A stretch of DNA of 64,000 bases from Exiguobacterium sibiricum 7-3. GTDB taxonomy: Bacteria; Bacillota; Bacilli; Exiguobacteriales; Exiguobacteriaceae. Location: the NCBI RefSeq assembly GCF_000620865.1, contig NZ_KK211190.1, positions 1,129,971 to 1,193,970 of the forward strand. Reading direction: 5' to 3'. Positions 33,714-61,079 of the stretch are shown one piece after another. The notes under the pieces were generated by a model that worked only from the letters and a program-made list of their open reading frames with translations, ran no database searches and was not told where the DNA came from. Within the stretch, counting starts at the first letter, position 1; each line of letters starts with the position of its first letter. The translations under genes and the position numbers were made by a program.

Positions 33714-34592
33714 GTGCAGATTGAGCATCGTGCCTTACTGCCCTTTAAAATTATTGATTCGACCAACCAACCGTTACGCGAAGGGGCAAACGTCATCGGT
33801 AAAGTATTGAAACTGCTTCCGGACGGTCTGATGGAGCTGCAAGTCGGACAACGTGTCTTGACGGCAGGAACGACAGCCGAGCTGAAAGAGGGCGCGACTT
33901 ACCGGTTTCTGGTCACGAGTACAGATGGACAGCCCGTTTTAAAAATCGTTTCACAGGAAACGAGTTCTCCGAAATTACCAGTGCTTCCGACATTTGATCG
34001 AATCAATCCACTTTCAGCGGAATCCGTCCCGCAAACGACACGAGATGTCTTGCAACAGCTGGGTCAAAAAGTGATGGAAGGGTCCGGAACAGCCTTCAAA
34101 CAAGCTATCATTGAATTGGTTCAACTCGCTCGGAGTGCGGATGGTACAACAGAAGGGCAGCTCGACCGGAAGACGAGTGATCAGGTACTTGCCCAACAGG
34201 TCATTCAAGCGACGAATGAAACCGGACGCGGTATATTTTTGTTTCAATTACCGCAATTTGGTCCTTTCGAAGAAGTCGATGTCACGATGGAGGCACCTTT
34301 TGATCAAAAAGAATTTAATCCGGATCACGCACGAATTGCTTTTTACTTAAAACTGCCGAAAGTCGGTGAAATTGCATTGGATTTATTAATCACGGATCGA
34401 AAAATAGCGATTTCCGTTTTTCATCCGGATGAACGGATTGCCGCTTTTATGTCCCACTATCAGCCGACCATCGAACAACGTCTGCACGAGCAAGGATATG
34501 CTTTGATCCGCTTCGAACAAATAGAAGCGGAAAAAGAACGGATACCGTTCCAGCCGACGGATCGAAACGGAAGGGTGGACTATCAAATATGA
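33714..34592 (+). CDS. YlqG-like protein, possible FliK-like hook-length relative
   Basis: A 292-residue soluble protein I do not recognise by function. GTG start follows a perfect AGGAGGTGA. The N-terminal third is a compact beta-rich domain (KVLKLLPDGLMELQVGQRVLTAG, then ATYRFLV). The C-terminal half contains FYLKLPKVGEIALDLLITDRKIAISVF, which resembles the FliK C-terminal pattern of a Leu-rich strand, Gly-Glu, then a second strand. The gene sits between rnhB and an FlhB C-terminal-like gene, as ylqG does in Bacillus. The four-base overlap with that gene supports a joint role. FliK likeness is inference. Confidence 0.7.
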   Translation: MQIEHRALLPFKIIDSTNQPLREGANVIGKVLKLLPDGLMELQVGQRVLTAGTTAELKEGATYRFLVTSTDGQPVLKIVSQETSSPKLPVLPTFDRINPLSAESVPQTTRDVLQQLGQKVMEGSGTAFKQAIIELVQLARSADGTTEGQLDRKTSDQVLAQQVIQATNETGRGIFLFQLPQFGPFEEVDVTMEAPFDQKEFNPDHARIAFYLKLPKVGEIALDLLITDRKIAISVFHPDERIAAFMSHYQPTIEQRLHEQGYALIRFEQIEAEKERIPFQPTDRNGRVDYQI

Positions 34593-34849
34593 AAAAAGCC
34601 ATCGCCTTATCCTACGAAGAACAGATGCAGGCGCCTAAGGTCGTCGCGAAAGGATCAGAACGGGTCGCGGAGCGCATTCTCGAAGAGGCCTTACAACACG
34701 GTATTCCGATTCGGCAAGACGAGACGCTGGTCACGTTGCTCGACGCCGTCCAAGTCTCGGAACAAATTCCAAATGAATTATATGGGGTCATTGCCGAGTT
34801 GTTTGCCTTTTTATATCAACTCGATCAAACAGGAATTTCGAAGAAATAA
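34589..34849 (+). CDS. FlhB C-terminal-domain-like protein (YlqH-like)
   Basis: An 86-residue protein matching only the cytoplasmic tail of FlhB/YscU export-gate proteins: [20 protein letters not shown], then [18 protein letters not shown] and [12 protein letters not shown]. The full FlhB in this window has the matching APIVVAKG, IPIIENRPLARAL and AETLAFVYQM. The self-cleaving Asn-Pro-Thr-His is not present; the protein begins with the segment that follows it. Overlaps the upstream gene by ATGA. Possibly competes with or substitutes for the cleaved FlhB tail; not shown. Confidence 0.85.
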
Positions 34850-52090: not shown

Positions 52091-53260
52091 ATGAACTTGA
52101 CGGATGTACAGCAAACACAAACGGCTAAACCGGTTACGAAGTGGAACGGAAAAGAACTCCCGGCGAATGGCGTTGGAAATTTTGCTTCGCTACTTCAATA
52201 CTTAGTTCAACCTCTAGCTGAGGGCGTACAGAACCCATCACTGAATCAACAGATAATATCAACTGAAGGGGAGACGAATCTCGAAGTCAAACCGCTGTTG
52301 GAACAATTGACCGCACAGCCGGAAAAAGTGTTACAACTTCTGGAGCAACCCGAAGTAGAAGGTATGATACATGATCCAAAAAAAGCGACGGAGCTGATTC
52401 AGTTCATTAAGACGATACAAGACGGACAGCCAGGAAAAGCGATAGAGTTATTCGAACAATTCCCAGCTTCGCTCCAACAAGTACTTGCAACGGTGATGTC
52501 GACCGTCGTCGGCGTCGCTAAGGAACACGTGAAATCAAATGAATTACCGGTCGGAATGAATACTCCGGTCATACGGATGACGGACGCTACCGGAATTGCC
52601 GTGTCAGCTCCACCGGTGAGTAATCCAACATTGGTTGATTCTACAGGCGTCAAAAAAGATGCAACTGTGACTCCGTTTTCGAACCGTCTTGTACTTCCCG
52701 AACAAAATACATCAACACTGAAAACAAGTGTCATGACTAAAAAAGTGATTGAATCCATTCAGGTAGCTGCCGATCCGGAAGGAAAAGAACATCCTTCACT
52801 ACTGACCGGATTCAAATTTGAACGAATGACTAGTGCAGGATCAGCAATTGTTCCTCAACCTGTAATGACTACAAGTGTTGATGACCAGCTCATGTCACGG
52901 ATTGAGGCGGCGATGAAACAAGCGCCCTTTTTAAAAGGTGCGGATGGTTCGACGAGAATGTCAATCCGATTGTACCCAGAACAATTAGGTGAGGTCGTCA
53001 TCCAGTTGGATAAAAAAGACGGCTTATTGACGGTAAAACTTTTCGCGGCGACGGAACAAGCGAAACAACTGTTGGATCAGCAACTCGGAAAGTTACATAC
53101 GTCGTTGCAACCACAAGCACCACTCGTCAAAATCGAAACCGGGATGTTAGCAGCGAGCGTCAAAGATTTTGACCAAGGTTTACCGCAAGAACGACGGGAG
53201 CGTCAGCAAGAGGAACCTGTCCCGTACGAGGAAGAACCAGAGGAGGATGAAGATGACTGA
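52091..53260 (+). CDS. fliK: Flagellar hook-length control protein FliK
   Basis: Secreted ruler (389 residues) that stops hook growth. The C-terminal domain carries the FliK signature [21 protein letters not shown] followed by [13 protein letters not shown]. The N-terminal and central parts are low in conservation, rich in Thr, Pro and Val. It ends in an acidic [10 protein letters not shown] run whose codons also form the ribosome site of flgD. AAGGGGTGAG precedes the ATG. Confidence 0.9.
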
Positions 53261-59987: not shown

Positions 59988-61079
59988 ATGGGAAAATACA
60001 CATTAACACTTGACCTCCAGTATTTTGCGGGCGAAAAGACGGAAAAAGCATCGCCCCGAAAACGCGATGACTCTCGAAAAAAAGGTCAGGTCGCAAAGTC
60101 AGCTGATTTAACAAGTAGTTTGATGTTGTTTGGCATGTTCTTGATTTTATTTTTCTTTGGTCCGTTTCTAGGAAAACGGTTCGTCATGGTGTTAGAGCAT
60201 GGACTTAGTGCTCAAACGGTTTTAGTCGCTGTCGAAGAAGGGCGTGTTCAGGAAGTCATGATTGAAATGTTGGTCCAAATGAGTATTCTCGTGGCCCCAT
60301 TCTTTCTGACAGCCGTTATCATCGGCATTTTAGGAAATTTCATGCAAATCGGAGCATTGCTCAGCGCGGAATCAATCCAACCGAAACTTGATCGGATCAA
60401 TCCCCTGCAAGGAGTCAAACGAATCGTCAGCATGAAAGCATTGATTGAATTCTTGAAATCTGTTTTTAAACTGCTTGTCATCGGTGTGACGAGCGGAACC
60501 GTCTTATGGAATAACAAAGTAGAAATTTCACGCTTGACGTCAGAACCGATTGGTGACGCCTTGGCGATTATCGGTCATCTGACTTTCCTGTTGGGGATTT
60601 CGGTCAGTATCGCGTTGATTGTCCTTGCTGTCCTTGACTTTGCTTATCAAAAATTCGATTTTGAAAAGTCGATTCGGATGAGTAAGCAAGATTTAAAGGA
60701 TGAACATAAGAATACGGAAGGTGATCCGCAAATCAAAGGGAAAATTAAACAGCAACAACGGGAGATGGCCATGCGGCGTATGATGCAGGAAATACCGAAT
60801 GCCGATGTTGTCATTACAAACCCGACCCATTATGCCGTTGCGATTCAATATGATGACGGCAAACATGCCGCACCAATTGTCGTCGCCAAGGGAGTGGATG
60901 CTGTCGCATTCCGGATTCGGGAGAAGGCGACAGCAGCTGAGATCCCGATTATTGAAAATAGACCGCTCGCACGAGCATTATTCGCAAAATCAGAAATAGG
61001 AATGGCAGTGGATGAATCATTTTATCAGGCACTCGCTGAAACACTCGCCTTTGTCTATCAAATGAAACAAGCGAAATGA
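59988..61079 (+). CDS. flhB: Flagellar biosynthetic protein FlhB
   Basis: Export substrate switch (363 residues). LDLQYFAGEKTEKASPRKR begins it; four membrane helices lie in about residues 35-215. The self-cleavage site is Asn278-Pro279-Thr280-His281, followed by the tail with APIVVAKG and IIENRPLARALFA. FliK from this operon triggers its switch. Compare the tail-only relative at 34589-34849. Confidence 0.97.
   Translation: MGKYTLTLDLQYFAGEKTEKASPRKRDDSRKKGQVAKSADLTSSLMLFGMFLILFFFGPFLGKRFVMVLEHGLSAQTVLVAVEEGRVQEVMIEMLVQMSILVAPFFLTAVIIGILGNFMQIGALLSAESIQPKLDRINPLQGVKRIVSMKALIEFLKSVFKLLVIGVTSGTVLWNNKVEISRLTSEPIGDALAIIGHLTFLLGISVSIALIVLAVLDFAYQKFDFEKSIRMSKQDLKDEHKNTEGDPQIKGKIKQQQREMAMRRMMQEIPNADVVITNPTHYAVAIQYDDGKHAAPIVVAKGVDAVAFRIREKATAAEIPIIENRPLARALFAKSEIGMAVDESFYQALAETLAFVYQMKQAK

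Follow-up and report, generated by a model that had tools for sequence, protein, structure and literature searches.

A FliK-type switch-domain gene coupled to a detached FlhB tail in Exiguobacterium, a candidate accessory pair for flagellar export switching

Detached homologues of the cleaved C-terminal chain of FlhB (FlhB_CC) are already known, as the family TIGR00789 (flhB_rel) and as FlhX, and the title of the paper on Helicobacter pylori HP1575 calls that protein a 'spare part' for FlhB_CC. According to a 2026 Salmonella study, the cleaved tail of FlhB holds the export gate in its early mode and docks early substrates, and its removal, driven by FliK, is the proposed flip in export specificity (PMC13344023). 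The final five residues of Salmonella FliK are described as important for switching in the same study and in a second one (PMC13344023, PMC10965912). Excerpts of two further papers touch on related genes; in Nitratiruptor, flhX-fliK is listed with those genes that lie apart from the main cluster (PMC9321776), and a ylqG mutation is listed, its function uncommented in the excerpt, in a Bacillus subtilis evolution study (PMC11523185). Our search of the open-access literature found no paper on the gene pair described here, on the flagellin cassette that contains a second such pair, or on the last-five element of its FliK-like partner.

The window, which is the whole 64,000-nucleotide stretch of Exiguobacterium sibiricum 7-3 DNA analysed, contains a two-gene module at 33714-34849, and both genes lie where the original prediction had put them (Table 1). 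We take the 292-aa partner to be YlqG-like and the 86-aa tail to be YlqH-like. The predicted translational coupling of the two genes is borne out by their ATGA overlap, with a 4-base overlap kept in 29/30 family loci read and a value of -1 at the remaining locus. The partner gene starts 13 bases after the rnhB stop, in a gene order that we read, from presumed gene identities, as rplS, lepB, ylqF/rbgA, rnhB, the pair, sucC, sucD, dprA, topA, trmFO, an xerC-like gene, clpQ, clpY and codY, followed by the flagellar operon. The pair sits among housekeeping genes, and the 11 kb separating it from the flagellar operon, which had been singled out, is a real distance but an unremarkable one, as the rnhB-linked position recurs in other families; the pair lies behind rnhB across the phylum and is no local oddity.

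Table 1. Coordinates of the gene pair and of the canonical FliK and FlhB in the window
Feature	Coordinates	Strand	Evidence
FliK-like partner gene, 292 aa, GTG start	33714..34592	+	ORF; hhalign to FliK; fold match 2RRL
Detached FlhB C-terminal tail gene, 86 aa, no NPTH	34589..34849	+	PF01312, alignment, model
ATGA overlap of the 292-aa and 86-aa genes (translational coupling)	34589..34592	+	sequence; kept in relatives
Predicted small beta-barrel (OB-like), N-terminal, partner residues 17-85, in place of the FliK ruler region	33762..33968	+	model; OB-type matches
Predicted FliK-type substrate-specificity domain, C-terminal, partner residues 202-270	34317..34523	+	PF02120, hhalign, 2RRL
VDYQI, final five residues of the partner, FliK 'last five' type element	34575..34589	+	conservation; E. 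coli FliK VDIFA
Canonical FliK of the flagellar operon	52091..53260	+	PF02120 53.3 bits
Full-length FlhB	59988..61079	+	sequence
NPTH of FlhB	60819..60830	+	sequence, alignment; absent from the 86-aa protein

Against Pfam PF01312 (FlhB/HrpN/YscU/SpaS), the 86-aa protein scores 63.4 bits, above the cut-off of 24.4, over profile positions 262-334 of 335, which is the tail region only. Its score against TIGR00789 is 97.4 bits, below the curated cut-off of 117.35, which is reached by 0/38 Exiguobacteriaceae genomes and by 2/299 genomes of the phylum. When aligned with the FlhB of the window, whose NPTH we take to be the self-cleavage site, tail residue A4 falls on FlhB A283 and the first three residues, MKK, lie opposite T-H-Y; the detached tail therefore begins shortly past the N-P bond of FlhB. 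NPTH itself was found in 0/50 detached tails of one set and 0/81 of a second, overlapping set. The claim that the gene 'equals' the FlhB tail after cleavage holds for this start and for the lack of NPTH, but 'equals' is too strong, because the tail shares 38% identity with that of the window's own FlhB. An AlphaFold model of the tail (pLDDT 86) has as its top PDB match the Salmonella FlhB cytoplasmic domain (3b0z chain B; E 9.5e-7, TM 0.84 by query length), and the protein is accordingly modelled as having the fold of the cleaved C-terminal chain of FlhB. It differs from FlhB_CC in being the product of a separate gene, with no FlhB_CN part. With FlhB_CC homology and neither a membrane domain nor NPTH, it is an FlhX-like detached tail; it resembles TIGR00789 and FlhX (HP1575) as a short homologue with a gene separate from that of FlhB, present in flagellate bacteria, and departs from them in its sub-threshold score, its coupling to a FliK-domain partner and the existence of a second, flagellin-linked type.

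Compared directly by BLASTP, the 292-aa protein and the FliK of the window show no similarity, so the likeness of the partner to FliK is visible only through profiles, fold and relatives. Its own PF02120 (Flg_hook, FliK) score of 18.7 bits is under the cut-off of 29.8 and weak alone, and same-genus orthologs exceed the cut-off (36.8 bits in G020, 37.1 in G028, 32.0 in G029 and 30.6 in G034); among ten phylum partners scanned, five are above the cut-off, two are below it and three have no match. Profile-profile comparison of the partner with FliK by hhalign gives a probability of 96.7 (E 3.8e-10), as the original prediction would have it. Overall confidence in the partner model is poor (pLDDT 63); for residues 201-270 the block means are 77-91. 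Foldseek ranks FliK_C (2RRL; prob 0.98, E 5.2e-3) first and the PscP switch domain (PscP SS, 5cuk) second. VIA-align of model residues 180-273 with 2RRL gives Z 6.0, a score shared by unrelated OB-fold entries whose match is to the other domain; the OB-type matches to the N-terminal barrel (Z 5-6) concern a common fold and are weak. Taken as homology, a predicted FliK-type substrate-switch domain in the 292-aa protein is well supported by these profile and model matches, and the suggestion that its C-terminus recalls FliK is upheld. The partner is like FliK in fold, profile and last-five element; unlike FliK, it has no recognisable hook-length ruler, carries a predicted OB-like N-terminal domain instead, and is encoded by a gene coupled to a detached FlhB tail.

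The partner ends in a last-five element of the FliK type, VDYQI, which was no part of the original prediction. Among 26 partners that are 7 to 87% identical to the window protein, D289, the Asp of VDYQI, is the sole invariant column, and E. coli FliK ends in VDIFA. Scored as [VILMFYA][DN]..[VILMFA] at the C-terminal end, the element is present in 89/94 Bacilli partners (among them 30/30 from the Exiguobacteriaceae), in 16/17 tabulated flagellin-linked partners, and in 29/76 canonical FliKs of pair-bearing Bacilli (the FliKs of two genomes of the class, G344 and G396, were on truncated loci and were left out); all these counts come from related genomes and are not independent. Canonical FliKs of the Exiguobacteriaceae lack it (0/16), and all of their ends are acidic, that of the window included. 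Outside the Bacilli, 13/17 canonical FliKs of pair-bearing genomes fit the pattern, the other four having E or S for D/N, and a lenient form of the element ends 50/51 phylum partners. For background, 69/522 genes fit in a mixed set that is rich in the partners themselves, the 5-mer pattern occurs at 1.5% of positions within partner proteins, and of the 62 window genes of at least 100 aa only the 292-aa gene fits.

A strict hand-over of the last-five element from FliK to the partner is unsupported, as the element is present in the FliKs of 4/9 pair-less Bacilli versus 29/76 pair-bearing ones (Fisher p 0.73). Across all genomes read, 39/46 pair-less FliKs have it; the favourable 26/26 of the first sample, for which 4 further, truncated loci were left out, was weakened by the 13/20 of the second. 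Given the proportions within the Bacilli, we regard the overall contrast between pair-less and pair-bearing genomes as a lineage effect. The strongest result against a simple hand-over is that 5/9 pair-less Bacilli were found with neither the element in FliK nor a partner. With the proportions in Bacilli also alike, a strict need for the pair as substitute for the FliK trigger is contradicted.

TIGR00789 matches are present in 250/299 phylum genomes. Of the 249 other than the genome under study, 182 have at least two matches each and 67 a single one; the single-match genomes comprise 65 with a full FlhB in one piece, one (G153) with FlhB split over two contigs, and one (G060) with an FlhB fragment and a tail. 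FlhB is found in all 182 listed genomes with at least two matches, at E 6.6e-74 or better; the second match was read as a detached tail among about 150 best matches and is presumed to be one in weaker-scoring genomes. Genomes with a detached tail thus also have FlhB, as a fragment only in G060. The tail is absent in 66/249 flagellate genomes of the phylum sample. No tail was found in the 49/299 genomes without a TIGR00789 match, and PF01312 matches among them are confined to G061 (below the cut-off) and G257 (E 4.5e-12). In 74 genomes with FlhB and without a detached tail, there is one FliK-domain protein in 69, none in 4 and two in 1; in contrast, 26 of 30 chosen pair-bearing genomes have two or three (E up to 0.01), which argues that tail and partner are kept and lost together. 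The partner was read upstream of the tail in 51/55 loci (the 30 phylum loci with the best scores plus 25 additional, overlapping ones). Their joint presence and absence and their dependence on FlhB speak for the original interpretation. The FlhB of G060 is represented by positions 1-187 alone (C36:15449-16027, open frame 243 aa) beside an intact tail (C1:195781-195999), which may reflect a contig end or a natural split.

The genome also carries a second pair (G000:C7:632218-632430; locus L008:6431-10396), which the original prediction did not mention and which a ComK-like gene adjoins (L008:10491-10997). All 38 Exiguobacteriaceae genomes, of two genera, have one FlhB and two detached tails, with one extra row in G004 from an apparently duplicated contig. 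The second pair forms a cassette of a 639-aa partner, a 96-aa tail, FliS, flagellin and DUF327, opposite flaG-fliD-fliS, in the same order in ten named Exiguobacterium loci and in 11/11 Exiguobacterium loci in all; the closest named genomes with the second pair are Exiguobacterium species such as E. sibiricum (93% identity over the best segment of the 639-aa partner) and strain RIT594 (94%). A profile built from six flagellin-linked tails, which include the tail of this genome and those of the 4 genomes outside the class, cleanly sets this type apart among 151 class genomes (its scores are 115-141, the next being 103), and identifies it in 12 genomes of the Exiguobacteriaceae and in a further 12, which belong to five families of the class; outside the class, flagellin-linked tails are present in 4 of the 299 phylum genomes. 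Next to the tail come FliS and flagellin in 14/16 non-Exiguobacterium loci, the exceptions being L228, with only the tail and DUF327, and L234, with flagellin on the other strand and no FliS. In a midpoint-rooted tree of the tails, with few columns and many forks unresolved, the flagellin-linked tails of different families form one clade (100/100) and the FlhB tails another (100/96). We therefore rejected the second pair as a recent duplicate of the window pair.

Upstream of the 639-aa gene, 42-48 bases before its start, TCAA-N15-GCCGATA is present in 11/11 Exiguobacterium loci, and resembles what we take to be the sigma-D consensus. The strict pattern TAAA-N13-17-(G/C)CCGAT had no match upstream of either pair, and the looser site was spotted by eye after that and then checked in the 11 loci. 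As these loci are related, its conservation is modest evidence alone. For comparison, GCCGATA occurs in 85/7804 windows of 130 bases, and GCCGATAW in the 64-kb window is at chance level (4 versus 3.1 expected). No sigma-D-like site is present in the roughly 400 bases that precede the rnhB-linked pair.

With an FlhB_CC-fold tail coupled to a FliK switch domain and a last-five element, the pair most plausibly represents another actuator and target for the same gate, and we think there is a somewhat better than even chance that it acts as an accessory export-specificity switch on the flagellar type III gate, made of an FlhX-like 'spare' FlhB tail and a FliK-type actuator. The 86-aa protein would be a ready-made FlhB_CC chain that could substitute at the FlhB_CN site for the cleaved tail of FlhB itself, and the 292-aa protein, with its OB-like N-terminal domain, switch domain and last-five element, would be a ruler-less actuator that binds the tail and loads, holds or ejects it, with a presumed effect on export. 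The rnhB-linked pair would act on the general gate, and the flagellin-linked pair, expressed with late genes, would set the gate for its own FliS-flagellin set. The interpretation originally offered, a second switch set, is partly supported, in that the switch domain, the FlhB_CC fold, the coupling, the co-occurrence and the copy beside flagellin hold; mutual binding of the two proteins, tuning of hook length and action independent of FlhB and FliK are conjectural. Against the accessory switch speak the flagellate genomes that manage with no detached tail, the Bacilli proportions for the last-five element, and the rnhB-linked pair's housekeeping surroundings and lack of a sigma-D-like site.

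Other readings account for parts of this evidence. The tail might be purely a spare part that backs up FlhB_CC upon loss of FlhB's tail, with the partner as its chaperone and no switching; its FlhB_CC fold, the wording of the HP1575 title and the genome in which an FlhB fragment lies beside an intact tail are all consistent with this, but it does not account for the partner's FliK switch domain and conserved last-five element or for the second pair linked to flagellin, and we consider it unlikely. The free tail could instead be a brake or decoy that titrates FliK or the partner and delays switching until none of it is left. Judging from PMC13344023, a soluble protein like FlhB_CC might act as a competitor at the switch domain of FliK, and the strict coupling of the two genes suits such a role, which we nevertheless hold to be decidedly unlikely. 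A non-flagellar function, perhaps alongside rnhB and rbgA in the metabolism of ribosomes or RNA, is suggested by the operon-like place after these genes and by the OB-type matches of the partner; however, no tail was found in the genomes without TIGR00789 matches and the second copy adjoins flagellin, and this reading is very improbable.

Returning to the accessory switch, we speculate on a bolder form of it, which is rather unlikely as a whole: many Bacillota flagella might have a re-armable second switch set, in which the detached tail re-occupies FlhB_CN after FliK ejects FlhB_CC and the ruler-less partner times its exit, the flagellin-linked version being a portable filament module with switch pair, FliS and flagellin that reprograms an existing gate. 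If the cassette does bring a switch pair for its flagellin, it would show how bacteria could control a second filament through one export gate. Because FlhB tail and FliK switch domain form a separate gene pair, twice in Exiguobacterium, the ejection model is testable by simple deletions and swaps.

Several further arrangements were seen. Two genomes of one family have partner-tail pairs that lie near neither rnhB nor flagellin (G175, L078:3424-5518; G223, L077 and L121). Flagellin-linked tails occur in tandem in G313 (L072:5051-8065) and G450 (L231:5847-8584), and the second partner in L072 looks broken up. DUF327 (PF03885) recurs in the flagellin cassette (L008:6431-6871, L073:8439-8891, L075:2769-3206), which suggests that it is filament-related.
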